The notes under the pieces are model-generated. The model searched no databases and was not told the origin of the DNA. It saw only the letters and a program-made list of their open reading frames with translations. Positions 4,079 through 34,026 of a stretch of DNA of 52,462 bases are shown one piece after another (within the stretch, counting starts at the first letter, position 1; every line of letters starts with the position of its first letter). The stretch comes from a virus, in the IMG/VR virus record IMGVR_UViG_3300033571_008036, positions 1-52,462 of that record, one strand, 5' to 3'. The position numbers and the translations under genes are program-made.

Positions 4079-4375
4079 ATGAGATACGAAACAACCGTCA
4101 ACATTAAAAAAAGATGGGATGGCAAAAGATACTTTGGAACACGTTTATATCCAAATATTCCCGTTGATCCGAGTGATATTTATATTGTCACAAATGAAAC
4201 CGATACATTAGACAATCTTGCATTTAAGTATTACAAGAATCCATCGTTATGGTGGATTATTGCACAAGCTAATAGTATTGGTAAAGGAAAGATTTCGGTT
4301 CCTGCCGGATTACAATTACGAGTTCCAACCAAGATCAACACGATACTTAACAATTATAAGTTACTCAATTCTTAA
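4079..4375 (+). CDS. LysM-like baseplate protein (gp53-like)
   Basis: A 98-residue protein whose core (about residues 36-83) matches the LysM-type pattern: an ITV-like strand (IYIVTNETDTLDNLAFKYY), then WWIIAQANSI and a PAGLQLRVP turn. This is the architecture of small baseplate wedge proteins (gp53 family) and of the LysM adaptor proteins between tape measure and hub in contractile injection machines. The N-terminal 35 residues (TTVNIKKRWDGKRYFGTRLYP) are beta-rich. It lies 10 bp after the large tail protein and 5 bp before the hub-like gene, so co-expression is likely. A lysozyme is unlikely because no catalytic domain is present. Confidence 0.7.
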   Translation: MRYETTVNIKKRWDGKRYFGTRLYPNIPVDPSDIYIVTNETDTLDNLAFKYYKNPSLWWIIAQANSIGKGKISVPAGLQLRVPTKINTILNNYKLLNS

Positions 4376-7238: not shown

Positions 7239-8579
7239 ATGAACACTTTAGCACAAATCTCATCTGAAATTGGCAAGAGAGATGTTATTTTAGATGTCAT
7301 TCCACTGTGCGAATGTGTACATCCTGCTGCCACTGATCCTTGTTTGGCTCTGATTAAAGTTATTGATGTCGATAAATTTTTTTGTATTCATATTAACAGT
7401 TACGACTGTGGCGTGTTTCATACAAAATACGAAGTCGAACAATTGTTGAATAAACTACGTGGACGTATTTTTTGTTTTTCTAAACGAAAAGTTTTACATC
7501 AACTTGAGGTTGACAATCTACTAGATTTGTCATTGGTAAGTTTTATTGAAACGGGTGATGTGTTTGATCAAGATGAATATGACACGTCTTCACATTTGTT
7601 TTTTAAAAACAAGTATCAAAATCATAACGAGTTGAATAAAATCATTCCTTCTAACAATCACATATCACGATTTTTGGATATGTGTGAAGACGTTAAGTCT
7701 TATGTTAAGAAGAAATACGAAGATTCGTATTATGAGGTGAATAAGTCGATCATTGAAACATTGCAATCAATTGAATCACATGGGTTACAAATTGACACAG
7801 ATGAATTTTCAAAACACTTTTCTGACAAAGATCATTTGGTAGTGAATAAACGTGTATATACTGAATATAACATTTTTACATCTACGGGCCGTCCTAGCAA
7901 TCGTTTTGGTGGCATTAACTATTCTGCATTGAATAAGGAGAATGAATGTCGCAAGAGTTTTGTATCCCGATTTGGTAATGATGGTGTATTGGTGATGTTG
8001 GATTATAGTGCGTATCATCCTCATATTATTGGAAAGTTGATTCGGTATGATTTTCCAAAAGATGTGAATATCTATGAGTATTTGGGTCGATATTACTTCA
8101 AAACCGAAAATCTTTCCGAAGATCAGTTGAAGAAGTCGAAAACGTTAACGTTCCAACAATTGTATGGTTCTATTTCGGAAGAATACGCTAAAATTCCTTA
8201 TTTTGCGAAGATCTGTGAGTACATTCAACATCGATGGGAGTTTTTTAATGAATTTGGATATATAGAAACGCCAATCTTTAAGAGACCAATTACAAAGAAT
8301 CATTTGAAAGATGCAAATCCGAACAAGTTGTTCAACTATATTCTTCAAGCATCTGAAACTGAATATTCTGTACAAAGTTTGACTGATATTAATCGGTATT
8401 TGACGGATAAATTGACAAAACCAATTTTGTATACGTATGATTCAATGTTGTTTGATGTGAACAAGTCAGAAGGAAAATCGGTATTATTAGAGATTGTGAG
8501 ATTGATGCAAAATCAAGGATTTCCTACAAAATGTTATTTTGGACACAATTATCATGATATGCAAACTGTAACTATTTAA
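7239..8579 (+). CDS. Minimal family A (Pol I-like) DNA polymerase
   Basis: A 446-residue protein carrying the polymerase motifs of family A in order: TSTGRPSN (214-221, the TGRLSS-type motif), motif A DYSAYHPHIIGKL (255-267), motif B KTLTFQQLYG (301-310, with the K and YG of the O helix), an NYILQASETE segment (366-375) and motif C YDSMLFDV (400-407). The two metal-binding aspartates are present (D255, D401). Unusual points: the residue matching the steric-gate Glu of E. coli Pol I is His260, and the HDE of motif C is YDS. Family A enzymes normally have 550-900 residues; here the N-terminal ~170 residues show no clear exonuclease motifs and the thumb looks reduced. It stands alone between tail and replication genes. 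A specialised polymerase for repair or end-filling is possible, but that is speculation. Confidence 0.75.
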   Translation: MNTLAQISSEIGKRDVILDVIPLCECVHPAATDPCLALIKVIDVDKFFCIHINSYDCGVFHTKYEVEQLLNKLRGRIFCFSKRKVLHQLEVDNLLDLSLVSFIETGDVFDQDEYDTSSHLFFKNKYQNHNELNKIIPSNNHISRFLDMCEDVKSYVKKKYEDSYYEVNKSIIETLQSIESHGLQIDTDEFSKHFSDKDHLVVNKRVYTEYNIFTSTGRPSNRFGGINYSALNKENECRKSFVSRFGNDGVLVMLDYSAYHPHIIGKLIRYDFPKDVNIYEYLGRYYFKTENLSEDQLKKSKTLTFQQLYGSISEEYAKIPYFAKICEYIQHRWEFFNEFGYIETPIFKRPITKNHLKDANPNKLFNYILQASETEYSVQSLTDINRYLTDKLTKPILYTYDSMLFDVNKSEGKSVLLEIVRLMQNQGFPTKCYFGHNYHDMQTVTI

Positions 8580-8599
8580 AAAGTTCAGTTTTGGTAAGA

Positions 8600-8626
8600 G
8601 ACACAATATTTATTACATATTGTGTC
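8600..8626 (+). promoter_or_regulatory. Perfect 10-bp hairpin directly before a start codon
   Basis: GACACAATAT (8600-8609) and ATATTGTGTC (8617-8626) form a perfect 10-bp stem with a 7-base loop, ending three bases before the ATG at 8630. There is no T tract, so it is not a standard terminator. It could control translation of the next gene or be a protein operator in DNA. The repeat is seen directly; the function is inferred. Confidence 0.45.
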
Positions 8627-8629
8627 GTC

Positions 8630-10225
8630 ATGAATAAAGATAAAATCATCAAAGATATTCTAACGGAATATGCGTTATTAGTTGAAGACGGTGGCATTGG
8701 ACCTATTGATGCTGACAAACTAATGACTGCCGTAGAAAAGTGTGGATACGGCGAATGTTTTTCATTCGATACATTACTCAAAGAAATTCAGTCACCAACA
8801 TCTGTTTCAAAAAACAGAATGTCTGAAGAAGATATTGCGTTATTTAACAAAATGGTCGGAACTCTAAAAAGAGTTGGAAATTTTGACGACAATGATTTAA
8901 GAAACGCTGATTTGGATTATGTAAAAAATAGACTTCCAGATCGATTTCCTGGCGATACCCATAATCCGCAGGGATTGACTTATGATGAAATGATCAAAAA
9001 AGTCATGGATTCGGCTGATAGCGATAAGCCAGTTGAAATGACTAACTGTCCAACAAGTTTGAGAATTAAACGTGGCAATGAAAAGATTTCAATAATCAAA
9101 CTTCCACAGGGATTAAAAATTGACACTGATGGTTTTGGTAAGGCTAGATTGTATTTGAAGTTGTACAAAGAGTTAGGAAATAAACTATCATCAAAAACAA
9201 CTAAAGCAGCAGGCATTGAACAAGAACGTATTAAGGCAGAAGAACTTAATAAATGGTTTCAGGAGAATAATTCAAAACAGTTGCCACACAAACTACACAT
9301 GGTTAATGAAGAGGGTAAACGTGTGGATTGTAAAGTTGAGGTTACTGGTGCTGTTCATTTAAGTTTGGGTAGAACCGGTAAAGCTGACATTGCGATGATT
9401 AATGGAAATGACCAAGTGTTTTGGGTTTCATTTAAGGGCGGTGATTTTAAAGATGCTTCAACTGGTGATAAGTACATTGATTTCCCACAATATGGCGGAT
9501 TTAAAGGTCTGGATACATTGTATTTGTCCGATTCTACAAAGGTAAAAAAGGTATGGAACAGTGTCAAGGGTAGAATTGTAGAAGGAATTGTTAAAAATTA
9601 TCCAAATAAGTTGTTGATCGATCCTAAAACCACAACATTTGATGAAGACAATGTGGTGGTCAACATTAATGGGCGATCTGCAAAAGAAACTTTGCCTCCA
9701 TCATTGTATACGTTTATAACGGGAAAATTTCGACTTACATTTTATAGATTCGTTATAGATAAATCTATGCCATCTAAACAAAAGTACTTGTATTTAATGA
9801 GTAAGTTTTCAGGATATCTGGATTTCCTAGATGGTTCTCCTGAGACCAAGGAAATTGCTGGCAAATCTATTTACGGAAAGGAGTTTAAACTAGATAAGTC
9901 TGCTCCATTTAATTTAAATAATTGTAATGTGCTGATGCAAACTAGTACTCCGTTGGATATTAGTATTATACCCGCTAAAAAAGATTTACATTTATTGATA
10001 AAAACCGGTCCTGGCGGATATATTCTTTTCAATCCTAATTTGCCATTGCCAAAAGATACAACCGATCCGTTTACATTATATAAACCAATAATGTATGTAA
10101 GATCTGGCACCGAAGAATCAATTGATGTTTATCATAAAGATGTACATTACATGTTTTTGAGTTGCAGAATTGCAGTATTGCCATGGGCAAAGAAGTCGGC
10201 TGACGCAATTGATTTATCGAAATAA
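8630..10225 (+). CDS. Unknown 531-aa protein, possible PD-(D/E)XK-like nuclease
   Basis: Starts at ATG 8630. An upstream in-frame TTG at 8591 is rejected because the extension runs through the hairpin. I do not recognise a family. The N-terminal 180 residues are helical and charged. Around residues 240-275 the sequence reads LSLGRTGKADIAM, then VFWVSFKGGDF: an Asp at the end of one strand and S-x-K on the next, after a helix rich in Glu. This resembles the core of PD-(D/E)XK nucleases with a substituted E, but the match is weak. The C-terminal half is beta-rich (PGGYILFNPNLPLP). It follows the PolA-like gene and precedes another unknown gene by one base, so the three may form a unit. A late structural protein is the alternative. 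Confidence 0.5.
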   Translation: MNKDKIIKDILTEYALLVEDGGIGPIDADKLMTAVEKCGYGECFSFDTLLKEIQSPTSVSKNRMSEEDIALFNKMVGTLKRVGNFDDNDLRNADLDYVKNRLPDRFPGDTHNPQGLTYDEMIKKVMDSADSDKPVEMTNCPTSLRIKRGNEKISIIKLPQGLKIDTDGFGKARLYLKLYKELGNKLSSKTTKAAGIEQERIKAEELNKWFQENNSKQLPHKLHMVNEEGKRVDCKVEVTGAVHLSLGRTGKADIAMINGNDQVFWVSFKGGDFKDASTGDKYIDFPQYGGFKGLDTLYLSDSTKVKKVWNSVKGRIVEGIVKNYPNKLLIDPKTTTFDEDNVVVNINGRSAKETLPPSLYTFITGKFRLTFYRFVIDKSMPSKQKYLYLMSKFSGYLDFLDGSPETKEIAGKSIYGKEFKLDKSAPFNLNNCNVLMQTSTPLDISIIPAKKDLHLLIKTGPGGYILFNPNLPLPKDTTDPFTLYKPIMYVRSGTEESIDVYHKDVHYMFLSCRIAVLPWAKKSADAIDLSK

Positions 10226-10226
10226 C

Positions 10227-10940
10227 ATGAAAAAGACTTATAAGAATATTTCTGAGTTGTTATCGGAACTTTGTTTAGATGAACGAGTTCGTGATGGCAT
10301 ATTTGACATTTTTAACAACGATCATATGGATATTTTGCGAGAAAAACTTGCAGAAATGGAAATTCCATCCAATGAAGTTGTTGAATTCGCTAATAAAGTT
10401 ATCGAAGGTAAATACCCAGAAAGACAGGCATATAATGCTAAGGGTATCTTGGTTACGTTTCCAAATGCTGAGTACAAGCAACGTGCCATACGTCGTGGAA
10501 CCCATTTTGAAGAAGATCCTACACGGGGTCAACACAATTTGGATTTTTCAACGTCTGCACAAACAGTACAACAAGAACCAACATCACCTAATGAAAAACC
10601 TATTGAAATTGAGCCAGGTGCTCAACAACCTAATCAACAAGTTATTCAACAAACCAATAGTACAACCAATGGCACCGCCACCGGTACAACCGATCAATCT
10701 GCCAATCAAGGTCAGTCCGGAGTTGACACCGCCGATCTCGAAAACAGAAGTCCCGATCAAAAAGAAAAGGACTCCAAAGAAATCGAAAAAATCTTAACGA
10801 CCGAATTTACGTTAGAAGAAGCTGCCACACATAATTGGATTAAAAACAAAAACAAGTGGTATAATTCTGACGGCAAATTAGTTGGTTATCAATGGTATAA
10901 TGTAAATAGTCAAAAAACCACTATATTATCAGTCAGATGA
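10227..10940 (+). CDS. Unknown protein with Gln/Thr-rich linker
   Basis: Starts at ATG 10227, one base after the preceding stop; an upstream start at 10170 would overlap that gene and is less likely. About 237 residues in three parts: a charged helical N-terminus (residues 1-65), a basic segment (RAIRRGTHFEE), then a low-complexity Q/N/T/P-rich linker (roughly 105-175), and a C-terminal domain with closely spaced aromatic residues (NWIKNKNKWYNSDGK, then YQWYN). The layout is of two small domains on a flexible tether. No family is recognised. It overlaps the next gene by an ATGA junction, which suggests a shared message with its neighbours. Confidence 0.55.
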   Translation: MKKTYKNISELLSELCLDERVRDGIFDIFNNDHMDILREKLAEMEIPSNEVVEFANKVIEGKYPERQAYNAKGILVTFPNAEYKQRAIRRGTHFEEDPTRGQHNLDFSTSAQTVQQEPTSPNEKPIEIEPGAQQPNQQVIQQTNSTTNGTATGTTDQSANQGQSGVDTADLENRSPDQKEKDSKEIEKILTTEFTLEEAATHNWIKNKNKWYNSDGKLVGYQWYNVNSQKTTILSVR

Positions 10941-11329
10941 AAGATACACAATTACTTTGTACATTTGTTATACCAACTGAGTATACGTTGATAATAGAAC
11001 AAATAAAAACGTTCTATACATTATCAAATAATAAAATATTTGTGTTCAGTAATGAAAAAAACAATAATGAATTGTATTTGACTTATAATATTTTATACAC
11101 AGATGCGGCTCTCAAAAAGCTGCCTAATACTATTTCTATACATCGTAAAAAACAAACCAATACTTTGTATACTCTTAATGCCATGAACAAGCTCATCACT
11201 GAGGAAAATAATGGCGTATTTGATAAGACATTTCAGCTAAACTGGGAATACTATAAAAACTCATTAATTATAACAAATGAGATATCCGTGAAAATAATTT
11301 CACTCAAAATTTTCGACATAATAAGTTGA
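10937..11329 (+). CDS. Unknown 130-aa protein
   Basis: Starts within the stop codon of the previous gene (ATGA overlap). The protein alternates hydrophobic strands and charged loops (CTFVIPTEYTLIIEQIKTFY), with a Lys/Asn-rich middle and a hydrophobic C-terminal strand. It has no signal peptide, no membrane span and no recognisable motif. It is the last gene before a promoter that leads into the ssb gene, so it closes the unit begun by the PolA-like gene. Confidence 0.5.
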   Translation: MKDTQLLCTFVIPTEYTLIIEQIKTFYTLSNNKIFVFSNEKNNNELYLTYNILYTDAALKKLPNTISIHRKKQTNTLYTLNAMNKLITEENNGVFDKTFQLNWEYYKNSLIITNEISVKIISLKIFDIIS

Positions 11330-11442: not shown

Positions 11443-12276
11443 ATGGCAATCGACTTGTCTAAAATTAAGAGCCGTTTGAACTCCCTTTCAAACACGAATA
11501 ACAAAACCCAACTCATTTGGAAACCCAAGCCGGGTAAGCAAACTATTCGTATCGTACCCTACAAGTATCAACCAGATACTCCGTTTATTGAACTCAAGTT
11601 CCATTACGGCATTAACAACAAGACCTATCTGTCTCCGGATAGTTTCAATCGTCCCGATCCTATCGTTGAGTTTAGCAATAGACTCAAGAAGACTGGTTCT
11701 AAGGAAGATTGGCAGACTGGCCGCAAGATGGAACCCAAGATGCGTACTTTCGCTCCGGTCATCGTTCGTGGTGAAGAGCATGAAGGTGTGAAGTTCTGGG
11801 GATTCGGAAAGCAAGTGTATCAGGAGATTCTATCGGTTATGGCCGATCCTGATTACGGTGATATTACCGATCTCGCTTCCGGACGTGATATTGTGGTTGA
11901 GTTCCGTACCGCTGAAGAGAGTGGTAAGAACTATCCTGAGACTTCAATTCGTGTGAAGCCAAACGCTACACCTGCTGTTGATCCTAAGGATGGAAAGATG
12001 CTTGAAGCACTCAAGAATCAAACTGATATTCTTGATTTGTTCCCAGAACCTAAGTATGAGGAACTCAAGGAGGTTATGAACGCATGGCTTAATCCGGAGG
12101 AAGCTCCTGCTGAGACAGTCAGTAACGCAGTTGTTGATGATGATGATACTCAACCAGTCGCTGCTGCTGCCGTTCAGGCTGCTCCAAAGGCGACTAGTAA
12201 GTCACCTACCGCCACTGCTGCAAAAACAAATACAGATGACCTAACCAAGGCATTTGATAATTTGTTCAATGGTTAA
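11443..12276 (+). CDS. gp32-like single-stranded DNA-binding protein
   Basis: A 277-residue protein beginning with a basic, helical segment (IDLSKIKSRLNSL), as in T4 gp32 where the N-terminus drives cooperative binding. The core (residues ~25-175) carries aromatic and basic residues suited to ssDNA binding (LIWKPKPGKQTIRIVPYKY, KFWGFGKQVYQEIL). The C-terminus is an acidic/Ala-rich linker with DDDD and a final DDLTKAFDNLF, matching the acidic tail that recruits replication partners. There is no Cys in the protein, so the zinc finger of T4 gp32 is missing. It has its own promoter and is followed by a strong terminator, so it can be made in larger amounts than the genes downstream. Confidence 0.8.
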   Translation: MAIDLSKIKSRLNSLSNTNNKTQLIWKPKPGKQTIRIVPYKYQPDTPFIELKFHYGINNKTYLSPDSFNRPDPIVEFSNRLKKTGSKEDWQTGRKMEPKMRTFAPVIVRGEEHEGVKFWGFGKQVYQEILSVMADPDYGDITDLASGRDIVVEFRTAEESGKNYPETSIRVKPNATPAVDPKDGKMLEALKNQTDILDLFPEPKYEELKEVMNAWLNPEEAPAETVSNAVVDDDDTQPVAAAAVQAAPKATSKSPTATAAKTNTDDLTKAFDNLFNG

Positions 12277-12337: not shown

Positions 12338-13528
12338 ATGTCAGAAGAAACACCAAAAAAGAAGAAAGGATCAACTCATGTTACGCATGAAGTTGTATCA
12401 CAGCGAGATGAACTAGTTGAGTCACTTGCTGAGGTTCTAAACAAGGCCAATAAAGATGCAGGTAAGTGTGCGTTTTTCTTGGATCAAAAGGAAGATCCAT
12501 CTACAATTACAGATTGGATCAGTACAGGTTGTGATATCTTGGATCTCGCAATTTCAAACCGTCCACACGCGGGTATTCCCGTTGGACGTATAACTGAAAT
12601 CACCGGACTTGAAGCGTCTGGTAAGAGTTTATTGGCTGCACATTTGCTTGCTGAAACGCAAAAGAAAGGTGGATTTGCTGTGTTTATTGACACAGAACAG
12701 TCTGTTTCTCATGACTTTCTCAATGCAATTGGAGTTGATGTTCCAAACATGTTGTATGTTACGGCAAATACCGTTGAAGACATCTTTGAAAAGATTGAAA
12801 CGTTGATCGCCAACGTTCGTAAGTCAAACCGAGATCGTCTTGTAACCATTGTTGTTGATAGCGTTGCTGCTGCTTCAACCAAAGCTGAGTTGGAAGCTGA
12901 TCATGGTAAAGATGGTTATGCTACGGGAAAGGCAATTATCATTTCCAAGGCAATGCGTAAGATCAACGACATGATTGGTAAGCAACGTATTGCGTTGATT
13001 TTTACCAACCAGTTGCGTGTTAATCTTCAGGCAGCGATGTTTGGAGACAAGTATGTGACCAGTGGTGGTAAGGCTATTCAATATCACGCTAGTGTACGTC
13101 TTCGTTTGAAGGGCATGGGAGCGTTGAAGGTTACTCAAAATGGAGAACCCGCACATATTGGTGTTAAGACACGTGCGGTTGTTGTCAAGAATCGTATGGG
13201 ACCACCTATGAGATTTGCTGATTTTAGCATCTTCTTTGATAGTGGTGTTGATAATTATGGCAACTGGATTGAGGTCTTAAAGAAGCACTCAATTATTACG
13301 GGATCAAAGTCACCTTACAATTACACCAAGAACAGTGGTGAAGCTGTTAAGATTGATACCAAGACGTTTGCCAAAGACATGAAGATTGATGTAGAACTTC
13401 GTGAGGAGTTGTATCAGAAGATTGCCGAGGTTACGATCATGAAGTACAAGTCACCTGACAGTGAAATTCGTGAGGATGTGGAAGTTGATTCTTCCGAGGA
13501 TGCAGAAGAAGTGGGTGGAGAAGAATAA
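12338..13528 (+). CDS. uvsX: UvsX/RecA-like recombinase
   Basis: A 396-residue RecA-fold ATPase for homologous pairing and recombination-dependent replication. Walker A is GLEASGKS (90-97), the catalytic Glu lies in IDTEQS (E120), Walker B is TIVVDSVAA (170-178), and the NQLR (224-227) and TSGGKAIQYH (241-250) segments match the DNA-binding loop region of RecA/UvsX. The N-terminal 50 residues are Lys-rich, then helical (polymerisation arm); the C-terminus is acidic (SSEDAEEVGGEE). It follows the ssb terminator and precedes the exonuclease by 5 bp. Length and context point to a UvsX-type phage recombinase rather than a captured host RecA. Confidence 0.88.
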   Translation: MSEETPKKKKGSTHVTHEVVSQRDELVESLAEVLNKANKDAGKCAFFLDQKEDPSTITDWISTGCDILDLAISNRPHAGIPVGRITEITGLEASGKSLLAAHLLAETQKKGGFAVFIDTEQSVSHDFLNAIGVDVPNMLYVTANTVEDIFEKIETLIANVRKSNRDRLVTIVVDSVAAASTKAELEADHGKDGYATGKAIIISKAMRKINDMIGKQRIALIFTNQLRVNLQAAMFGDKYVTSGGKAIQYHASVRLRLKGMGALKVTQNGEPAHIGVKTRAVVVKNRMGPPMRFADFSIFFDSGVDNYGNWIEVLKKHSIITGSKSPYNYTKNSGEAVKIDTKTFAKDMKIDVELREELYQKIAEVTIMKYKSPDSEIREDVEVDSSEDAEEVGGEE

Positions 13529-13533
13529 ATGTT

Positions 13534-14598
13534 ATGAGTTTTAACCAAGATGAAAAGAAAAGATTGTTCTCTATTTTTGAGAACGTCTCACAAGAAGACA
13601 AGAACAGTTTATCTAACCGAAGTCAAAATTCGGATATTCTCTTGGTTGATGGACTTAATACATTTATCCGCGCATATTCGGTAATGCCATCCATGAATGA
13701 AGATGGTCTTCATACGGGTGGCATTGCCGGATTTTTAAAGAGTGTGGGTTATGCAATCAAATTGCTTAACCCTACTCGGTGTGTCATTATTTTTGATGGT
13801 AATGGCGGCAGTATGAAACGTCGTAAGATTTACCCACAATACAAAGATAAACGACACACAAAGATTCGTCTTAATAGAGCATATTCTGAATTATCTACAT
13901 CTGAATTGGAAGAAAAGAATATGAAGTCTCAGTTGTTGAGATCTGTTCATTATTTGGATTGTTTGCCAATTTCAACAATGGCGATTGATCACATTGAGGC
14001 GGACGACACAATTGCTTACATCGCTCAACAATATTATAAGAACAACAATGTCACTATAATGAGCGCTGATAAAGATTTTTTACAGTTATCCAGCGAGAAA
14101 ATTAAAGTTTGGAGTCCAACAAAAAAGAAACTGTATGGATGTGCAGAAATATTGAATGAATATGGCATCAGTTGCCAGAACTTCATATGGTATAGGGTTT
14201 TGGAAGGGGACGTATCAGATAATATTGATGGTGTTCATGGTGCTGGATTAAAAACTATCATCAAATGTTTTCCGTTTTTTACCGAAAGCAGAACAGTTGA
14301 TTTGCAAGAGATTTATAATTACTGTGAGAACAATCAGAGTAAGTATAAAATTTATCGTACTATACTTGAGAACAAAGATATTGTGGAACGTAACTACACG
14401 TTGATGCAATTGAAAGATACGGAGATTCAAAGTTTCTCACAACTTCGTATCAATGAAATATTAGATCAGCCAACGAAGAAGCTAGACCGTATGGGTTTTT
14501 CAAAGTTGGTGACTGAAGACAAAATGTGGAATAATATTCCCAATTACCAAATTTGGCTTAATGAATGTTTTGGTAAATTGACCACATTGGTGAGGTAA
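13534..14598 (+). CDS. rnh: RNase H-like 5'-3' exonuclease (T4 Rnh / FEN family)
   Basis: A 354-residue flap nuclease/RNase H that removes RNA primers from lagging-strand fragments. Metal-binding acidic residues are visible in order: LLVDGLN (D39), FDGN (87-90), EADD (155-158), SADKDF (177-182) and the helix-hairpin region GDVSDNIDGVHGAG (225-238), which is diagnostic for the 5'-nuclease family. The first 30 residues are a charged extension not needed for catalysis. T4 Rnh is about 305 residues, so this one is somewhat longer. It sits between UvsX and helicase, as part of the lagging-strand machinery. Confidence 0.85.
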   Translation: MSFNQDEKKRLFSIFENVSQEDKNSLSNRSQNSDILLVDGLNTFIRAYSVMPSMNEDGLHTGGIAGFLKSVGYAIKLLNPTRCVIIFDGNGGSMKRRKIYPQYKDKRHTKIRLNRAYSELSTSELEEKNMKSQLLRSVHYLDCLPISTMAIDHIEADDTIAYIAQQYYKNNNVTIMSADKDFLQLSSEKIKVWSPTKKKLYGCAEILNEYGISCQNFIWYRVLEGDVSDNIDGVHGAGLKTIIKCFPFFTESRTVDLQEIYNYCENNQSKYKIYRTILENKDIVERNYTLMQLKDTEIQSFSQLRINEILDQPTKKLDRMGFSKLVTEDKMWNNIPNYQIWLNECFGKLTTLVR

Positions 14599-14671: not shown

Positions 14672-16057
14672 ATGAGTGAAAATCATGTAATCGACAATTT
14701 GAAGAAGTTTGGATCTGAATTCCAAATCAAGTGTATTTCTGGAATTCTTAGCGATAAGACTTTCTTGGAAAGACTTTCTGACATCATTGACCCAACATCG
14801 TTTGAATCGGATGCGCATCAATGGATTGTCAAACAAACAGTTGCATACTTTATGCAATATAAGGATCTGCCTACACTTAATGTGTTTAAGATTAAGGTTG
14901 ACAGTATCGAAAACGGAGTCTTGAAAGAAGCCGTAGTTTCACAACTTCGTAATGTGTATCAAAAGATCACTGATAGTGATTTGAAGTTTGTCAAGGAACA
15001 GTATTTGGAGTTCTGTAAGAGTCAGAAGCTCAAGTCTGCTATTATTGATAGTGTGGAACACCTTAAGACGGGTAATTACGAACAAGTTAAGGCATTGGTT
15101 GACAGTGCAATGAAGGCTGGTATGGAACGTAACATCGGTCATGATTATATGACTGAGGTCGATAAACGTATGAGTGTTATGGCACGTAATACTGTCAAGA
15201 CTAACTGGACTGAAGTTGATACTATTATGGATGGTGGATTGGCAGCGGGTGAATTGGGCATTATTACTGCTTGTGCTGGCAGTGGTAAGAGTTGGGTTCT
15301 TGCTAAACTTGGTGCTGAGGCAATGAAGCAAGGAAAGAATGTGGTTCATTTTACTCTTGAGTTGAATGAAAACTATGTGGGTCTTCGTTATGATAGCTGT
15401 TTCACCGGAATTGATTTCCAAAACATTCGTAACAATGTGGATATCGTTCGTAAGAAGATTGAACAAGTTCCTGGCAAGTTGTTCATCAAGTATTTTCCAA
15501 TCAAGACTGTTAGTGCGCATCATTTGAAGATGCACGTTGAACGTATTGCGATGTTGGGAAGTAAGATTGATATGATTGTTGTTGATTACGCTGACATTCT
15601 ACGCCCGTATCAAAGTGAACGTAACAGTAACAGTTATAGTGAAGCGGGTGGTATTTATGAAGAACTTCGTAGTATTGCCGGTGAACTTCAGGTTCCTATT
15701 TGGAGTGCTTCACAAAGTAACCGTGCTGCAATGGATGAAGATATTATTCAGGCCAATAACATCTCCGATTCGTATCGTAAGATCATGACTGCTGACTTTG
15801 TTATGAGTCTGAGTCGTAAAGTTACCGATAAAGTTGCTAATACTGCTCGGTTTCATATCATTAAGAATCGTTTTGGACCAGATGGTCTGACATTCCCAAG
15901 TCGAATGAATGCTGGTTGTGGTGACATTCAGATTTACGCTGAAAATTCCAAGGATGGTGTGGCAATTCTCAATGAAATGGGAGATAGTGAGAATCTGGTT
16001 AAGAAAGCACTGTCAAATAAGTGGAATTCTCACATGAACACTGATGATGAGGAGTGA
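14672..16057 (+). CDS. DnaB/gp41-like replicative helicase
   Basis: A 461-residue hexameric 5'-3' helicase. The N-terminal ~170 residues are helical (primase-interacting region). The RecA-type motor has Walker A CAGSGKSW (201-208), the catalytic Glu in FTLELN (E230), and Walker B IVVDYADIL (302-310), followed by LQVPIWSASQSNRAA, which matches DnaB motif H4 (Q and basic residues). The C-terminus is acidic (MNTDDEE). Length is close to T4 gp41 (475 residues). It follows the exonuclease and precedes the ribonucleotide reductase genes. No primase gene is in this window, so it must lie elsewhere or be host-supplied. Confidence 0.85.
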   Translation: MSENHVIDNLKKFGSEFQIKCISGILSDKTFLERLSDIIDPTSFESDAHQWIVKQTVAYFMQYKDLPTLNVFKIKVDSIENGVLKEAVVSQLRNVYQKITDSDLKFVKEQYLEFCKSQKLKSAIIDSVEHLKTGNYEQVKALVDSAMKAGMERNIGHDYMTEVDKRMSVMARNTVKTNWTEVDTIMDGGLAAGELGIITACAGSGKSWVLAKLGAEAMKQGKNVVHFTLELNENYVGLRYDSCFTGIDFQNIRNNVDIVRKKIEQVPGKLFIKYFPIKTVSAHHLKMHVERIAMLGSKIDMIVVDYADILRPYQSERNSNSYSEAGGIYEELRSIAGELQVPIWSASQSNRAAMDEDIIQANNISDSYRKIMTADFVMSLSRKVTDKVANTARFHIIKNRFGPDGLTFPSRMNAGCGDIQIYAENSKDGVAILNEMGDSENLVKKALSNKWNSHMNTDDEE

Positions 16058-20911: not shown

Positions 20912-20939
20912 TTGACTTCTTTTAAACTTGGTGTAGGAT
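20912..20939 (+). promoter_or_regulatory. Predicted promoter of the MoxR-like gene
   Basis: TTGACT at 20912-20917, 16 bp spacer, TAGGAT at 20934-20939, directly after a terminator. The spacer end GGTG and the -10 box are the same as in the promoter at 21909. The -10 box covers an in-frame ATG at 20938, which argues that translation starts at 20956 instead. Confidence 0.6.
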
Positions 20940-20955
20940 GATCACAGTTAAGTTT

Positions 20956-21900
20956 ATGAAGAACACCAAGTCAATCAATCAAATCCTCGAAACCGCAGCT
21001 TCTAAAAAGCCGGATAATGTTATCATCTCAGATACCAAGTGGAAGTATCTTGTTCGTTCTGTTCTTTACGGAAAGAATGTGTTGATGATCGGACCAACGG
21101 GATGTGGCAAGACTCTTGCCGCACAAACAGTTGCTAAGACGTTTAATCGTCCATTCTTTTACTTTAACATGGGATCTACGCAAGATGCTCGTAGTGCTCT
21201 TGTTGGTAACACTCACTTTGAAAAGGAAACTGGAACTATTTTCAGTGAGTCTACGTTTGTTAGGGCGATTCAAACTCCTAACGCTGTAATCCTTTTGGAT
21301 GAAATCAGTCGTGCTCATCACGATGCTGCAAATATCATGATGACTGTTCTTGATATCCTTCAACGTTATCTTCGATTGGATGAAAAGAAGGATAATGCCG
21401 TTGTGAACGTGGCATCTGGTGTGTGTTTTATTGGTACTGCCAACATTGGTAACCAATATACCGCCACCCGTGTTATGGATCGTGCTCTTATGGATCGATT
21501 CTCAGTTAAGATTGAAATGGACTTTCTTGACAAACCGTCTGAACTCAGTTTGATGGTTAATCGATATCAAGTTGATCCCAATGATACGGTATTGTTCAAT
21601 ACCATTAGTTCTATTTGTGATATTTCTGCCCATACACGTGATCAATATCGACAAGAAGATGGTAAGATTACCAACTTTGTTTCAACTCGAGCGGTATGTG
21701 AAATGGTCGAATTGGCCAAGGATGGATTTAGTTTGAAGGAAATTGCTGAAAGTGTGATTTACCCAGAGTTCTCTGCTGATGGTGGCGTTGATAGTGAACG
21801 TACATACGTCAAACAAGTGGTTCAAAAGTATGTTCCTGCTGAGGCAATTAATGATCCTCTCATGAACGATCCGTTGAAGAAAAATCAACCTCCGTTCTAA
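20956..21900 (+). CDS. MoxR/CobS-like AAA+ ATPase
   Basis: A 314-residue AAA+ ATPase with Walker A GPTGCGKT (46-53), Walker B VILLDEISRA (111-120), sensor 1 GTANIG (160-165) and an arginine-finger-type RVMDRALMDRF. These are the features of the MoxR/CobS group, which works as a chaperone-like remodeller with a VWA-domain partner. The partner gene follows 46 bp later under a near-identical promoter. ATG 20956 is chosen over ATG 20938 because the latter lies inside the -10 box. Such pairs occur in several large phages but their target is unknown. Metal insertion (cobaltochelatase) is unlikely here, since no cobalamin genes are present. Confidence 0.8.
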   Translation: MKNTKSINQILETAASKKPDNVIISDTKWKYLVRSVLYGKNVLMIGPTGCGKTLAAQTVAKTFNRPFFYFNMGSTQDARSALVGNTHFEKETGTIFSESTFVRAIQTPNAVILLDEISRAHHDAANIMMTVLDILQRYLRLDEKKDNAVVNVASGVCFIGTANIGNQYTATRVMDRALMDRFSVKIEMDFLDKPSELSLMVNRYQVDPNDTVLFNTISSICDISAHTRDQYRQEDGKITNFVSTRAVCEMVELAKDGFSLKEIAESVIYPEFSADGGVDSERTYVKQVVQKYVPAEAINDPLMNDPLKKNQPPF

Positions 21901-21946: not shown

Positions 21947-23995
21947 ATGAAAAACAAATCATCTACTATTCACTCTGACTTTTGGTTGGATGAATTTGAC
22001 GACTTCGATGATATTGAGTCTTTGGACAATACTACTCGTCTAATTCGACTCAACATGAATCGTCGTGCTGTTTCTAATTTTGTTAGTATTCTCACCGGGA
22101 AGTCTATTCCTGTTATTTTCAACGATTCCAATGATAACATGACGGATGGACAAACCGTTCATTTGTCGTCTGAAATTGAAACACCGGAGGACTTTGATAG
22201 TACGGTTGGATTGGCCCTACATGAAGGATCTCACATTTTGTTGAGTGACTTCCGATTGATTGCCGATATCTGGCAGAACGTTCCTCGTAATCTTTATAAT
22301 ATTGCTGAAACAAAGGGTTTTAGTAAAGTTGAAGTTGCTTCTTTTCTAAAGAACATTCTTAACATCATCGAAGATCGTTATATTGATAACTTTGTTTATA
22401 ATTCCGCTCCCGGATATCGTGGCTATTATAAGGCATTGTATGAAAAGTATTTCAACAGTCCTCATATTAAAGTACTGTTGACCACGGATTTGTATCGTAC
22501 TGCCACCGTTCACTCGTATGAGACCCGATTGATCAATCTGATGAATTCTCATACTGATTTGGATGCTCTTCCTGGCTTTAGGAAAATGGTTGAGTGTATT
22601 GATATCGGTAATATTTCTCGTCTCAAGACTCCCAAGGATCGATTCGATATTGCACTACAAGTGTGTGAAATGATTTATCAGAACATCGATGCTGATGAAC
22701 AAGAAAAGGAGAATGTTAAATCCGAAATGAGCGGAAGTGGCGATTCTCAGACTGTTATTGTTGTCGTTTCGCCAGATCAAGGTGATGATTTTGGTGGAAT
22801 TGAAACTGATGTGAACTCTACAGGTATTCACAAGTCTGAAGAGAAGACTAAAAGTGCCAATGAAAAGAGTTCTATATCCAAGAGTAAACGTAATGCAATT
22901 GAAAAAGCATTGGCGAAACAACGTGATTTCTTGAATGGCAAGGTTAAGAAGAAGAAGGTTAGTGCTCGTGAAAAGCGTATCTTGGAAGACCTTGAGAAGG
23001 CTGGAGTCACAATTGTCAATGTTGGTGCTAATATTGATGACACTCAGGTTATTAAACATGGTGTTGATTGTGTCGTAGTAAAAAACTTTACTAAGGAATT
23101 TGCATTGTCAGAGAACTGTCCTTGTGTTACTTATGATTATAATAAGAATCCTAAGTCTGAGATGGTTGATGCTGTGAATCGTGGTGTTCAACTTGGCAAT
23201 CTTCTTGGAAAGCGTTTGAGTGTTCGTAGTGAAATCAACACTACTAAGTACATGAGAAAGTCTACTGGAAAGATTGATCGACGGGTTCTTTCAGATTTGG
23301 GGATTGATAATGAAAATGTGTTTTATCGTATTGATGTTGATCAATACAAGAATGCTTTTATTCACATCTCAATGGATGCGAGTGGAAGTATGCAACACTC
23401 TAAAAAGTGGACGAATACTATCACTTGTGTGACTGCTATTTGTAAGGCTGCTTCCATGATTAATAATATTCGTGTAAGTGTGAGTATGAGAACTACTGGA
23501 GCTAATGGCTTGCCGTATATCGCTATGGTATATGATTCTGCCAAAGATTCTTTCAACAAAGTTCGTACCATTTTTCCGTATCTTTATTGTAATGGCAGTA
23601 CACCTGAAGGACTGTGTTATGAAGCCATCATGGATACACTAAAGGAATCTGGAGAGTATGAGGATTGTTATTTCCTGAACTTTTCGGATGGTGAACCTGC
23701 GTATCATTTTAACAATCGGGAAGCATATATTTCTTATGGTAGCCAAAACGGTGGTATTCATACTCGTAAACAGGTGAATAAGATTCGTGAAAAGGGATAT
23801 AAGGTATTGGCATATTTTATTGGTGAACCGTCTCTTGGTCACAATAAAATAAAGGTTGACAATATGAACTATGGACCTTATAATTGTTTTAAAACGATGT
23901 ATGGTATTGATTCAAGATTTATTGATGTGACAAACATCATTAGTGTTGCCAAGACCATGAATGAAATGTTTTTGAGTAGTAATAGTAAAATCTAA
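21947..23995 (+). CDS. VWA-domain protein with metallopeptidase-like HExxH motif (CobT-like partner)
   Basis: A 682-residue protein with two parts. The N-terminal ~200 residues contain LALHEGSHILLSDF, with HEGSH at 92-96, a zinc-peptidase-type HExxH motif, as in the putative metallopeptidase domains joined to VWA domains (DUF2201-like). The middle (~235-340) is charged and Lys/Glu-rich. The C-terminal third is a von Willebrand A domain with a complete MIDAS DASGS (477-481) and a later FSDGEPAYHF segment. It is encoded right after the MoxR-like ATPase, the classic ATPase/VWA partner arrangement. The pair may remodel or clip a host or phage protein complex. Whether the HEGSH site is catalytic cannot be told from sequence. 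Confidence 0.75.
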   Translation: MKNKSSTIHSDFWLDEFDDFDDIESLDNTTRLIRLNMNRRAVSNFVSILTGKSIPVIFNDSNDNMTDGQTVHLSSEIETPEDFDSTVGLALHEGSHILLSDFRLIADIWQNVPRNLYNIAETKGFSKVEVASFLKNILNIIEDRYIDNFVYNSAPGYRGYYKALYEKYFNSPHIKVLLTTDLYRTATVHSYETRLINLMNSHTDLDALPGFRKMVECIDIGNISRLKTPKDRFDIALQVCEMIYQNIDADEQEKENVKSEMSGSGDSQTVIVVVSPDQGDDFGGIETDVNSTGIHKSEEKTKSANEKSSISKSKRNAIEKALAKQRDFLNGKVKKKKVSAREKRILEDLEKAGVTIVNVGANIDDTQVIKHGVDCVVVKNFTKEFALSENCPCVTYDYNKNPKSEMVDAVNRGVQLGNLLGKRLSVRSEINTTKYMRKSTGKIDRRVLSDLGIDNENVFYRIDVDQYKNAFIHISMDASGSMQHSKKWTNTITCVTAICKAASMINNIRVSVSMRTTGANGLPYIAMVYDSAKDSFNKVRTIFPYLYCNGSTPEGLCYEAIMDTLKESGEYEDCYFLNFSDGEPAYHFNNREAYISYGSQNGGIHTRKQVNKIREKGYKVLAYFIGEPSLGHNKIKVDNMNYGPYNCFKTMYGIDSRFIDVTNIISVAKTMNEMFLSSNSKI

Positions 23996-24491: not shown

Positions 24492-24761
24492 ATGAAGAGA
24501 AAACATTACTATTATTTTGAACTGTCAAAAGGCGATGGCTATCTTTTATATGATGGGGAGAGTCTAATTAAGTTGGACTCTCCTCTTTCTATTGGCAATG
24601 AACGTGAAGTCAAAAATGCGGTTGCCAAGTTGGATAAAGATGCCATAGTCACTTATTGTAATTTGAGAAATATAGATATACGATCTGATAAGATACTATT
24701 TGACTTTAAGCGTACTATGACTATAGACTATGCTGAACGAAATAAAAAGAAAACTGAATGA
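24492..24761 (+). CDS. Unknown 89-aa protein
   Basis: A small protein with an aromatic N-terminus (KRKHYYYFELSKGDGYLLYDG) and a charged C-terminus. No family is recognised. Its stop overlaps the start of the DruA-like gene (ATGA), so the two are probably translated together. The codons for GESLIKLDSP contain an inverted repeat (24555-24585), described separately. Confidence 0.5.
   Translation: MKRKHYYYFELSKGDGYLLYDGESLIKLDSPLSIGNEREVKNAVAKLDKDAIVTYCNLRNIDIRSDKILFDFKRTMTIDYAERNKKKTE
24555..24585 (+). repeat. Inverted repeat inside a short gene
   Basis: GGGGAGAGTC (24555-24564) and GACTCTCCTC (24576-24585) pair with one G-T wobble around an 11-base loop and are followed by TTTCT. The hairpin is inside the coding frame 24492-24761. 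It resembles a weak terminator or attenuator, but its T tract is poor. Confidence 0.35.
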
Positions 24762-25951
24762 ACGAAGACCATCCATTTTTTGATGTAGATCAATTCAAAT
24801 TTGATGAGAAACTAGAAAAACAAAAGTTCATAGACAATATGAACTATTTGAAAGCTATGAGCGTAGAAGAAGCTACGTTTTATAAGAAGTGGGATGAGGT
24901 AAAGGATTATCGTGATGATTTTGCATCAAGATCTGATGATGTAAAATATAAAATCTGGAAACCCAAGGACATTTACAATGAAGAGTTGACTCTGAAAGAG
25001 TTGGAAGAGTTGAATCCAACCATTGTACATGTAGAGACGGAACAACAAGAGTTGGATTGGTTGATGTTGCGTGTGTTCTGTCATACTATGGAGTTTAGTC
25101 AAACTCCCGGTAGGTTCTTAAAGTTTCTTATTACAGACGGTAACAGCGAACGTACACGTTATCTGGGAGCTGTATCTGTATCAAGTGATGTTATTACTAT
25201 TACAGATCGGGATAAGTACATTGGGTGGACACCCAAAAATAAGTTGGAAGATGGTAAGTTGGTACATAGTGCTATTGGAAGTTGTATTATGAGTACTCAA
25301 CCGTTTGGATACAATTTTTTGGGTGGTAAGCTGGTTGCATGTTTAGTTACATCGTCAGTTGTCAGAGATGTTTGGAAGAAATTGTACAATCAAACACTGG
25401 TAGGTATGACTACAACCAGTTTATATGGTAGTTATAGTATGTATAACAGTCTAAAGTGGTGGCACAAGTGTGGTACAAGTGCTGGAAAAATACCTATTAA
25501 ACCGGATGATACAGTGTATGAAAAGTGGCACAACTGGATTAAGGAAAATAAAGCGGATGAGTATAATAAGAAAATGACACAGAAAGATGATGTTTCTGGA
25601 CCTGTAACTGGTGCCAAGCAAAGAGTCATCAGCATGATTTTTCAACATTTAAACATCAAGACTCAAGATTATGTTCATGGATATGAACGTGGTGTATATT
25701 ATAGTAGTTTTTATGAGAATACCCGAGAGTTTTTGCAAGGTAAAGTTACTGAAGATCAATTGGTTATGAAGAAGTTGTTTTCGGATGATACCAAGTCTAT
25801 TTTGGATTGGTGGCGAGTGAAAGCTAAAGACCGATATTTGAAATTGAAAACCGAAAACAATCTTAAGAAGGATGTGTTGTATTATAATGCCATAATGGAT
25901 ATGTCATATCAGACTGCTAAGAACAACTTTTTTCAAGACGTTGGTCGATAG
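24758..25951 (+). CDS. DruA-like (DUF4338) protein
   Basis: A 397-residue protein. Residues ~120-270 show the pattern of the DUF4338/DruA family: RYLGAVSVSSD, RDKYIGWTPKNK, then GYNFLGGKLVACLV, VGMTTTSLYGS and KCGTSAGKIPIKP. DruA proteins are known from the Druantia anti-phage system and occur as solo genes in other contexts; their biochemical role is not established. The N-terminal 100 residues are charged and helical and the C-terminal 130 are a separate helical region. The druB-E partners are absent, so this is a solo gene. It is translationally coupled to an 89-residue protein. The assignment rests on remembered family patterns and should be checked with profiles. Confidence 0.5.
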   Translation: MNEDHPFFDVDQFKFDEKLEKQKFIDNMNYLKAMSVEEATFYKKWDEVKDYRDDFASRSDDVKYKIWKPKDIYNEELTLKELEELNPTIVHVETEQQELDWLMLRVFCHTMEFSQTPGRFLKFLITDGNSERTRYLGAVSVSSDVITITDRDKYIGWTPKNKLEDGKLVHSAIGSCIMSTQPFGYNFLGGKLVACLVTSSVVRDVWKKLYNQTLVGMTTTSLYGSYSMYNSLKWWHKCGTSAGKIPIKPDDTVYEKWHNWIKENKADEYNKKMTQKDDVSGPVTGAKQRVISMIFQHLNIKTQDYVHGYERGVYYSSFYENTREFLQGKVTEDQLVMKKLFSDDTKSILDWWRVKAKDRYLKLKTENNLKKDVLYYNAIMDMSYQTAKNNFFQDVGR

Positions 25952-26597: not shown

Positions 26598-26789
26598 ATG
26601 CCAACCACGTATGATGAAATAATAGCAGGTACCGCTACGATTACTACATTGATTGTAGATAATTCTGCTGCGTGTACTCCTACGCCAAGTACAGCTGGTA
26701 CGTTTGGTCAGATTATCATTTGTGAAAATTACATTTACGTTTATGATGGAAGTCAGTGGAAACGTGGCGAGTTGACTGTATATTCTTAA
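26598..26789 (+). CDS. 63-aa paralogue of the preceding C-terminal module
   Basis: Starts at ATG 26598, two bases after the preceding stop. The protein is little more than one copy of the module seen at the end of the preceding gene: TATITTLIVDNSAACTP, then GQIIICENYIYVYDGSQWKR. Roughly half the aligned residues are the same, so this is a tandem duplication of a domain, here as a stand-alone protein. It could form homotrimers, or mixed trimers with its neighbour, at a virion surface. Confidence 0.6.
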   Translation: MPTTYDEIIAGTATITTLIVDNSAACTPTPSTAGTFGQIIICENYIYVYDGSQWKRGELTVYS

Positions 26790-26797
26790 AAAAAGTC

Positions 26798-26826
26798 TTT
26801 ACACTGATCGTGGTTCGTGATAACGT
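26798..26826 (+). promoter_or_regulatory. Possible promoter of the UV endonuclease gene
   Basis: TTTACA at 26798-26803, 17 bp spacer, TAACGT at 26821-26826, ending 7 bases before ATG 26834. It matches the near-leaderless spacing of other predicted promoters here, but both boxes are weaker. Confidence 0.3.
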
Positions 26827-26833
26827 ATTTTTC

Positions 26834-27781
26834 ATGCGTAACCTACGTTTCGGGCTCTGTTGCATCTCACTCAAACTTCAAGAACAAGGAATCAAGTCGT
26901 CTACCATGACGAAAACTCGATTTCTTCAACTGGAACGACGGGAAGCAGAAAAAATTGTAGCAGATCGTACCCTCAACAATGTTCAAGTCACTCGTAAAAC
27001 TCTTGAATATTGTGCTTCTAAGAATTGGACATACCGAGTGAGTAGTGGAATGATGCCGTTGGAAACTCTTCCTGAAGCCAATCTTTGTATTGAAAACACT
27101 TACAATTTTGACTTCATCAAACAGGAGTTTGATAAGTGTGTCGAAGTTATTCGTAAGAACAAGATTCGTTGTTCAACTCACCCTGATCAGTTTGTGGTAC
27201 CTGCTAGTGCAAATCCACAGACTGTACAAAAATCGATTCAAGAGTTGATCATGCACGGCAAAATGATGGATTATCTTGGACTTCCACAAAGTTATGATGC
27301 TCCCATCAATATACACATGAATTGTTTCAAAGGAGCTGATCTAAAAGACATTGCAAAACGCTTTATTGACGTATACAACGCTTTTCCTGTGAGTGTGAAG
27401 AGTAGATTGGTTTTGGAGAATGAAGACAAGCCTAATAGTTGGAACGTGGAACAACTGTATGAACATGTGTATCAACAGACTGGAATTCCGATTACTTATG
27501 ACAATTTGCATTTTCGGTGCAATCCGGGTCGTCAAACTGCCGATGAAGCAATTGTTATGGCGAAAAACACATGGCAACAATATGTTCCAATGTTTCACTT
27601 TAGCGATAATGATCCGGCTGAAAAAAATGTTCGTGCACATGGTTATTATGCCACATCGTTTCCGGAAGAATTTCATAACATCAACTGTCCGTTAGACTTG
27701 GAAATGGAGTTTAAAGCCAAAGATTACGCTATTGAAAAGTTTCAAAATGAGTTTAATAAAAGAATTAATTTTGTTGACTAA
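26834..27781 (+). CDS. uvsE: UV damage endonuclease (UvsE/UVDE family)
   Basis: Starts at MRNLRFGLCCISL, the typical beginning of UVDE proteins; an in-frame ATG at 26756 would overlap the previous gene and is rejected. The 315-residue TIM-barrel enzyme nicks DNA 5' of UV photoproducts. Metal-site residues are visible along the barrel: CSTHPDQFV, HMNCFKG, LVLENED, ITYDNLHF and MFHFSDND, in the order and spacing of the family. T4 instead uses the unrelated pyrimidine-dimer glycosylase DenV. Repair of sunlight damage in the phage's own genome is the likely purpose, which suits an illuminated aquatic habitat. Confidence 0.88.
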   Translation: MRNLRFGLCCISLKLQEQGIKSSTMTKTRFLQLERREAEKIVADRTLNNVQVTRKTLEYCASKNWTYRVSSGMMPLETLPEANLCIENTYNFDFIKQEFDKCVEVIRKNKIRCSTHPDQFVVPASANPQTVQKSIQELIMHGKMMDYLGLPQSYDAPINIHMNCFKGADLKDIAKRFIDVYNAFPVSVKSRLVLENEDKPNSWNVEQLYEHVYQQTGIPITYDNLHFRCNPGRQTADEAIVMAKNTWQQYVPMFHFSDNDPAEKNVRAHGYYATSFPEEFHNINCPLDLEMEFKAKDYAIEKFQNEFNKRINFVD

Positions 27782-29078: not shown

Positions 29079-29736
29079 AAAAGTTTACATCGGAATATCA
29101 GGCGTTGCAAGATCGGGCAAAAACTTGTTTTGTGACATTTCAAAGAAAATAATCACCGAAACATATGGACTATCATGTAGTTCTTATGCATTAGCATTTT
29201 ATCTCAAGAATGACTGTAAGGAGTTTGTACGGGAGAAATTGGGATTGGACGTGTTTACTGAGAATACTGAAGATAAAAAGGTATTTCGAGATATGCTTGT
29301 GTGGTATGGTGATGTAAAACGTAAACAAACACATGGACGTTATTGGACTGAGAAACTTCAATCTGATATGGAAAAGGATAATTCGGATGTTATTTTTATA
29401 ACGGACATTCGATATAATTTTTATCCAAAAGATGAAGTGTATTGGATTGCTAACGATTTGCAAGGTAAGTTAATTCATATTTCCAAGTACACATACGGCT
29501 TTCCTACAGATGGTAGACGTATTCGTAGTGACATTGCAAATACTACGCAAAAGATTTGGATTGATCCTGCGAATGATCATGAACGTTGGAATGATCCTAA
29601 GGTTAAGGCCGAATCGGATTTTGTTGTTGAATGGCCTCATGTGAAATCTGAAGGAAAGACATATCAAGATATCATTAACGATGAAACTCTTGTTAAAATT
29701 GTATCTCCAATTTATGAAACTCTATTCAAGAAATGA
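29071..29736 (+). CDS. Deoxynucleoside monophosphate kinase (T4 gp1-like)
   Basis: A 221-residue P-loop kinase that phosphorylates dNMPs to dNDPs for phage DNA synthesis. It starts MNKKVYIGISGVARSGKN with the P-loop at 11-18 (GVARSGKN). VIFITDIRYNFYP and the basic RRIRSD segment fit the acceptor and LID regions of the gp1 family. It works with ribonucleotide reductase and dUTPase in the same precursor pathway. The downstream rmlA gene overlaps by 4 bases, linking nucleotide and sugar-nucleotide genes on one message. In T4 the gp1 enzyme handles the modified dHMP; a modified base here is possible but unproven. Confidence 0.75.
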   Translation: MNKKVYIGISGVARSGKNLFCDISKKIITETYGLSCSSYALAFYLKNDCKEFVREKLGLDVFTENTEDKKVFRDMLVWYGDVKRKQTHGRYWTEKLQSDMEKDNSDVIFITDIRYNFYPKDEVYWIANDLQGKLIHISKYTYGFPTDGRRIRSDIANTTQKIWIDPANDHERWNDPKVKAESDFVVEWPHVKSEGKTYQDIINDETLVKIVSPIYETLFKK

Positions 29737-30572
29737 AAGGCATCATTTTATCTGGCGGAACTGGTAGTAGGTTATATCCACTTACATGTGCAAGTAACAA
29801 ACAGTTATTGCCTGTGTTTGATAAACCCATGATTTATTATCCTTTGTCAACTTTGATTAACAAAGGAATAAGAGAAATCATGATTATATCTACACCTAAA
29901 TGGATTCCTGAGTACAAATCGTTATTTGGAAATGGAAAACATTTGGGATTGAAGATTGTATATGGTGTACAACCAGAACCAAAAGGTATTGCACAATCAT
30001 TTTTGATTGCTGAGGAGTTCCTTAAAAAGGATTGTGTATCTTTGATACTTGGTGATAATATTATTTTTGGAACATCAGTGGATACGTTATTGTCACCTGC
30101 ACATATCTTAGCGTATTCTGTCACAAACCCACGGGATTATGGTGTAGTTGAGTTTTCTTATGATGGACGAGTAAAGTCCATAGAAGAGAAACCAGATGTG
30201 CCTAAGAGTAAATTTGCTGTTCCCGGTTTATATTTTTATGACAATACAGTAGTGGGTATAGCTAAAAAATTAAAACCATCTGCCAGAGGTGAATTAGAAA
30301 TAACTGACGTTAACAAAGTCTTTCTTGAACGAAACGAGTTATATGCAACGTTGATGAAACGTGGATCTGTATGGTTAGACGCAGGTACACCCACAACATT
30401 GGCACAAGCAAGTAATTATGTTCAAACTATTCAAGAACGTCAGGGTATTAAGATTGCGTGTGTTGAAGAAGATTGCTTGAGTCGTGGATTTATTAATGTG
30501 GATCAGTTTAAAAAGATCATTGAAAAAACACCAAAGTCGGAATATAGAAATTATTTAGAATCGATCATATGA
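29733..30572 (+). CDS. rmlA: Glucose-1-phosphate thymidylyltransferase
   Basis: A 279-residue nucleotidyltransferase making dTDP-glucose from glucose-1-phosphate and dTTP. Diagnostic segments are present: GGTGSRLYPLT (8-18), KQLLPVFDKPMIYYPL (23-38), the GDNI motif near residue 108, and GLYFYDN and GELEITDVN. Length is near the usual 290 residues and no key residue is missing. It overlaps the dNMP kinase gene (ATGA) and is followed by the RmlD-like and RmlB genes, so it starts a dTDP-deoxysugar pathway feeding the glycosyltransferases. Confidence 0.92.
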   Translation: MKGIILSGGTGSRLYPLTCASNKQLLPVFDKPMIYYPLSTLINKGIREIMIISTPKWIPEYKSLFGNGKHLGLKIVYGVQPEPKGIAQSFLIAEEFLKKDCVSLILGDNIIFGTSVDTLLSPAHILAYSVTNPRDYGVVEFSYDGRVKSIEEKPDVPKSKFAVPGLYFYDNTVVGIAKKLKPSARGELEITDVNKVFLERNELYATLMKRGSVWLDAGTPTTLAQASNYVQTIQERQGIKIACVEEDCLSRGFINVDQFKKIIEKTPKSEYRNYLESII

Positions 30573-30587
30573 TATATATGATCGGTT

Positions 30588-31454: not shown

Positions 31455-31459
31455 TAACT

Positions 31460-34025: not shown

Positions 34026-34026
34026 A

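Follow-up and report, generated by a model that had tools for sequence, protein, structure and literature searches.

A thumbless family A DNA polymerase with an invariant histidine gate, very probably of the divPolA1 family, in a phage replication operon

The gene at positions 7239-8579 of the window (the whole 52,462-nucleotide stretch of viral DNA analysed, IMG/VR record IMGVR_UViG_3300033571_008036) encodes a family A DNA polymerase that keeps a Klenow-like palm and fingers with the two catalytic aspartates, has lost the thumb and the catalytic residues of the 3'-5' exonuclease, carries histidine in place of the steric-gate glutamate and lies in a conserved replication operon. It is almost certainly a member of divPolA1, a family already described by Yutin et al. 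2024 (PMC11348598), so the finding as such is not new; within that family the window protein forms a new branch, about 30% identical to the protein of Flavobacterium phage immuto. What is added to the description is that the gate His is invariant and that Arg754 and His881 are lost, together with a dN/dS of about 0.08, the gene order, a linked 130-aa orphan gene and a range that reaches a cyanophage and a 484-kb phage. The gene and its parts are as follows, with E. coli Pol I equivalents after the equals sign:

7239-8579 (+): divPolA1 gene, ATG start, encoding a 446-aa thumbless family A DNA polymerase (from structure, profiles and literature)
7239-7688 (+): N-terminal domain, about residues 1-150, a degenerate 3'-5' exonuclease fold without catalytic acidic residues (boundary approximate, from predicted secondary structure)
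7785-7856 (+): place of the deleted thumb, residues 183-206, with about 16 residues against 103 in E. coli Pol I
7878-7901 (+): signature T-S-T-G-R-P-S-N, in which T216, R218 (= R668), P219 and N221 are invariant (from alignment)
8001-8024 (+): motif A, DYSAYHPH, with the catalytic D255 (= D705) and, at 8016-8018, H260 at the steric-gate position E710
8118-8168 (+): motif B or O-helix, with K301 (= K758), F305 (= F762) and Y309 (= Y766); L297 replaces R754
8430-8444 (+): motif C, Y-T-Y-D-S, with the catalytic D401 (= D882), Y400 (= H881) and S402 (= E883)

An earlier note, made from the sequence alone, had recognized motifs A, B and C in the 446-aa protein and proposed that this genome, which also encodes a family B polymerase, has a second and minimal polymerase of family A whose gate is altered; structure prediction and profile searches now support this. 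The AlphaFold2 model is confident (mean pLDDT 91.6, pTM 0.88) and contains the palm fold, with the E. coli Pol I Klenow fragment as its top Foldseek match among solved structures (E 7.7e-19, query TM 0.74, probability 1.00) and other phage PolAs as its best matches in the viral library. Profile-profile comparison of Klenow with the divPolA1 family gave an E of 5.2e-9, and the residue pairs, checked by column, are D255/D705, H260/E710, K301/K758, F305/F762, Y309/Y766 and Y400-D401-S402/H881-D882-E883; both catalytic Asp are thus kept, His260 does stand in place of the gate Glu and YDS in place of HDE, all as the note had read them. Within the window protein the motif B helix runs K301-x3-F305-x3-Y309-G310, and the equivalents of Lys758, Phe762, Tyr766, Arg668 and Gln849 are retained along with the two aspartates. 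A 32-sequence profile HMM of the family matches Klenow with an E of 2.3e-6, and 17 of the 32 members match Pfam DNA_pol_A (best 7.1e-13); the single window sequence has no match to that Pfam family and matches PHROG 17 DNA polymerase over residues 202-441 (1.8e-9). The resemblance of the family to Klenow is far beyond chance.

While fold and catalytic core positions are alike, the Klenow fragment, unlike divPolA1, has a thumb, an active exonuclease, E710, R754, H881 and E883. The same departures appear against a set of 12 full-length PolAs (E. coli plus 11 phage enzymes). Full-length phage PolAs such as the 777-aa enzyme of immuto, the T5-like enzymes, T7 gp5 and those of Kayvirus and crAss phages have a polymerase core homologous to that of divPolA1, but all 12 have Glu at position 710, Arg at 754 and His at 881, whereas every divPolA1 member compared has His at the gate and every member examined has Tyr, Leu or Val at the second position and Tyr at the third. 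Where the E. coli thumb lies in the alignment (552-655), the full-length enzymes have 98-193 residues and divPolA1 has 4-18, and the family shows no conservation at the equivalents of the exonuclease acids D355, E357, D424 and D501. The earlier note was right about a minimal second PolA; it had overlooked both the thumb deletion and the loss of exonuclease residues.

In Pol I, R754 contacts the incoming triphosphate, and since no member examined retains this residue or H881, catalysis in divPolA1 may differ. The E883 position is variable among normal PolAs too, and is Ser in the active PolA of Thermus phage Tt72 (PMC9324360), so the serine of YDS is no sign of inactivity. The gate is another matter. 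E710, discussed as the steric gate in the same Tt72 paper (PMC9324360), is the residue expected of family A, and divPolA1 lacks it, with His in all members; unlike YDS, this is a real departure from normal PolA, though as a substitution within family A it is no argument against homology.

By tblastn, homologues were found in immuto (MW353175-7; E 1e-50, 30% identity over 94% of the query), in the uncultured 484-kb phage LR756508 and in Microcystis phage Mel-JY01, where the gene is annotated hypothetical; beyond these, only general PolAs appeared, and no nucleotide-level relatives of the window were found among phage records. Two scans of viral contigs, from which the best 80 of 312 and the best 80 of 109 relatives were taken, contributed to at least 191 loci with an extractable homologue; a scan queried with the LR756508 protein returned no relatives. 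A few contigs of metagenome-assembled genomes also carry the gene, several of them from Flavobacteriales bins.

Among the matches listed, 143 distinct sequences have full-length open frames in which T216, R218, P219, N221, D255, H260, K301, F305, Y309, G310, Q370, E373 and T374 never vary; Y400 and D401 are absent from a single, gapped row. The catalytic residues hold down to about 24% identity, and some 37 more distant members, reached independently through a neighbouring gene, keep the same residues with one F305W. For the window protein and its close relatives dN/dS is 0.06-0.10, about 0.08, values that are approximate since dS is near saturation; the gene is under strong purifying selection. 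In a tree of the polymerase core with phage PolAs, a check that the earlier note had suggested, the divPolA1 members form one side of a 100/100 branch, apart from the full PolAs. The stem that separates them from all phage PolAs compared is about 2.5 changes per site long, which makes a sister relationship to any particular phage PolA unresolvable.

In the literature searched, the name divPolA1 occurs only in Yutin et al. 2024 and its preprint. As far as the available text of that paper goes, divPolA1 is found in 14 phages of 155-190 kb including immuto (named there by accessions MW353175-7), always accompanies a regular family A, B or C polymerase, keeps the catalytic Palm with a truncated thumb and an inactivated 3'-5' exonuclease, and has conserved replication genes downstream; the members modelled are CAB4155247 and QDP51333 (records LR796625 and MK892584) (PMC11348598). 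The window protein resembles this second PolA of the immuto group: it is homologous to the immuto protein over its length, is additional to a PolB, has a truncated thumb and replaced exonuclease residues, keeps the Palm catalytic residues and is followed by replication genes. The range seen here extends beyond the 14 phages of the paper to a Microcystis phage, contigs of 207-276 kb and the 484-kb phage. The text available makes no mention of the His gate, of the loss of R754 and H881 or of the orphan protein p130, though the figures may show them.

A second family, divPolA2 of barbaviruses and Vibrio phages, is likewise a small divergent PolA without normal thumb or exonuclease domain, found beside PolB, but its gene neighbourhood is variable according to the same text (PMC11348598), and it keeps the gate Glu (YDFKAFE) and has FDE in motif C. 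Membership of the window protein in divPolA2 was rejected (hhalign against AUR84708, E 0.1, probability 0.6%).

The neighbourhood of the gene, with two further genes of the window that bear on its role, is as follows:

4079-4375 (+): gp25-like baseplate wedge protein, 98 aa, the conserved upstream neighbour
8591-10225 (+): 544-aa ORF between divPolA1 and p130, no family match
10170-10940 (+): 172/256-aa ORF between divPolA1 and p130, no family match
10937-11329 (+): p130, a 130-aa orphan genetically linked to divPolA1, candidate partner
11443-12276 (+): gp32-type single-strand DNA binding protein (SSB)
12338-13528 (+): UvsX-like recombinase
13534-14598 (+): 5'-3' exonuclease of the FEN / Pol I 5' nuclease type
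14672-16057 (+): DnaB-type replicative helicase
26756-27781 (+): UvdE-type UV endonuclease (Pfam E 2e-42)
51491-52462 (+): family B DNA polymerase (the main polymerase), exonuclease domain, cut off by the end of the window

Among the matches listed, the gp25-like baseplate gene lies upstream of divPolA1 in 123 of 123 loci, a 5' nuclease lies downstream in 77 of 78, and the full order p130-SSB-UvsX-5' nuclease-DnaB follows in 66 of the 68 loci long enough for it. NrdA and NrdB are also downstream in the window, after the helicase. The gene content around p130 is variable: in Mel-JY01 an S-AdoMet lyase-like protein is encoded between p130 and SSB (locus L034, 21823-23109), in immuto an unrelated 171-aa protein, so that, judged by gene content, there appears to be a variable cargo spot inside the operon.

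Homologues of p130 were found in about 160 extracted loci, with 36-48% identity across four lineages and a strongly conserved core, H-x-K-x3-N-T-x-Y-T-x-N. Its structure model is confident (pLDDT 92.5), and no convincing match appeared in Pfam, PHROG, PDB sequences or PDB folds. The gene and divPolA1 occur in exactly the same six phage records, and an independent scan with p130 led to divPolA1 in 35 of the 42 loci whose upstream sequence reached 2.5 kb or more. Of the seven loci where it was missed, six break off within 5 kb, while the two genes can lie as much as 6.4 kb apart; in the seventh, L273 (contig G014), divPolA1 is present at 55068-56297, outside the fetched locus starting at 56347.

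The main polymerase found beside divPolA1 differs between lineages. The family B polymerase reported from 51491 in the earlier note is confirmed, its full frame of 848-850 aa being present in six longer relatives of the window; the one examined, in contig G006, keeps the exonuclease and polymerase motifs FDIE, SMYP, KILLNSIYG and DTDS. (No capsid and terminase head module was recognized in G006 when its gene content was compared with that of immuto.) PolB accompanies divPolA1 in the window lineage and in Mel-JY01, whereas the immuto lineage has a full PolA in that role; of a further 20 long contigs with divPolA1, PolB occurs in 15, a full PolA in four of the immuto type and neither in one. The PolB of LR756508 is split over separate pieces (LR756508.1, about 259363-267278, with a 1022-aa frame), as are those of contigs G023, G024 and G027, which suggests inteins, introns or a natural gene split.

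Several other genes of the window are of interest in their own right. A DruA-like protein (24758-25951, +; Pfam 1.2e-23, PADLOC 5.7e-22), a component of Druantia defence, stands alone in this phage genome. Behind the gene for an AAA ATPase of MoxR/CobS type (20938-21900, +) comes that for a 682-aa protein (21947-23995, +) whose MDASGS motif is vWA-like, a possible MoxR-vWA pair in a phage (20938-23995). A minus-strand gene run at 33738-48487 holds several sugar enzymes including glycosyltransferases, among them a family 6 (ABO-type) glycosyltransferase (42031-42798, -) and HtrL/YibB (37384-38187, -), while a nucleotidyl transferase and two nucleotide-sugar epimerases lie at 29733-32416 (+). 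Near the PolB gene, 49739-50494 (+) encodes a FecR-domain protein with an N-terminal signal-like stretch.

Since divPolA1 sits in a conserved replication operon whether the main polymerase is PolB or a full PolA, a special task, as the earlier note supposed, is likely. Of the tasks that the note listed, end synthesis and the handling of modified bases or ribonucleotides are not singled out by any of the results. divPolA1 is very probably an active nucleotide polymerase, and no measurement of enzymatic activity in the family was found in the literature searched. Our best guess is an accessory polymerase that fills gaps or replaces primers, so that Pol I would in effect be split, with 5' nuclease and polymerase on separate proteins and bulk synthesis left to PolB. 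The enzyme would be catalytically active but bind DNA weakly on its own; its partners -- SSB, the 5' nuclease and perhaps p130 -- would bring it to its substrate, where it would close gaps that the 5' nuclease leaves at junctions of Okazaki fragments, UvsX-made joints or repair sites. His260 would be expected, through its imidazole, to fill the space of Glu710 and to take over the hydrogen bond to Tyr309, and dNTPs should then still be preferred. Loss of the thumb argues against processive synthesis, and short-patch synthesis is favoured because the neighbouring 5' nuclease is what a strand-filling enzyme needs. In T4, however, a 5' nuclease of this kind and PolB alone suffice for Okazaki-fragment maturation, so a second polymerase is not strictly needed for this. 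The odds lean slightly towards the general picture of a thumbless, proofreading-less family A polymerase, additional to the main one, that makes short patches with partners; the short-patch or primer-replacement role taken by itself is tentative, the balance falling a little short of even.

A translesion or repair polymerase for DNA damage in sunlit water, filling or bypassing gaps after UvdE or recombination, would suit an enzyme with neither proofreading nor thumb whose gene lies near UvsX, and UvdE, which would fit gap filling in repair though it is not universal, is encoded in the window and in 8 of the 16 other divPolA1 records tested. However, divPolA1 is kept without UvdE in the immuto lineage, Mel-JY01 and LR756508, and a gene so nearly always retained within a replication operon looks like a housekeeping one, which makes this reading unlikely; with UvdE in only 9 of 17 divPolA1 records, UvdE-coupled repair as a universal role is not supported.

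Somewhat less likely still is a primer-extending or ribonucleotide-using enzyme, in the manner of Pol alpha or of an RNA polymerase derived from PolA, whose His gate would admit rNTPs and which would make or extend short primers for the main polymerase. The gate is opened by smaller residues, in E710A-type changes, while His by contrast is bulky. The gate difference from the 12 full-length PolAs and the position of the gene beside SSB and DnaB are in favour, as is the origin of T7-type RNA polymerases from PolA, an argument that the available text makes for divPolA2 (PMC11348598). A DnaG-type primase is present, however, in all three complete divPolA1 phage genomes (immuto, Mel-JY01 and LR756508) and in nine of the 20 long contigs, where a single contig of 150 kb or more lacks it. 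divPolA1 is therefore no general stand-in for primase, and that role was rejected; the window and its six relatives yielded no primase, but these are all fragments (the window record is 52 kb). A bolder version, quite improbable, is a His-gated two-part polymerase in which p130 would supply the thumb in trans. The invariant His, together with the loss of R754 and H881, would turn its preference towards other substrates, be they ribonucleotides, mixed primers or a modified dNTP, and it would so make or replace initiator segments for any main polymerase.

The protein might instead be a replisome component that has lost catalysis and does no more than bind primer-template, much as an inactivated polymerase subunit would. 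This would account for the combined loss of thumb, exonuclease, R754 and H881, but is more improbable again: the metal-binding Asp and the K758, F762, Y766, Q849 and R668 equivalents are kept to about 24% identity, which would not be expected of a pseudoenzyme, and an inactive remnant was rejected on this conservation and on dN/dS. Explanations by chance motif matches, or by decay of a normal phage PolA into a fragment, for which the failed single-sequence Pfam search might speak, are refuted by the confident fold match to Klenow, by the 143 distinct full-length frames among the matches listed with their low dN/dS, and by the single well-supported clade apart from full PolAs.

A thumbless enzyme with an invariant changed gate is held under strong selection across a large and widespread group of T4-like phages whatever their main polymerase, suggesting that T4-like replication includes a step which T4 performs differently or can do without. 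Among environmental phages, hundreds of divPolA1 genes are likely labelled hypothetical, as in Mel-JY01, or just DNA polymerase, and such labels confuse PolA-based phage ecology. What remains of interest is the His gate, invariant in the family, and the orphan p130 linked to the gene; the question is approachable with one or two purified proteins.
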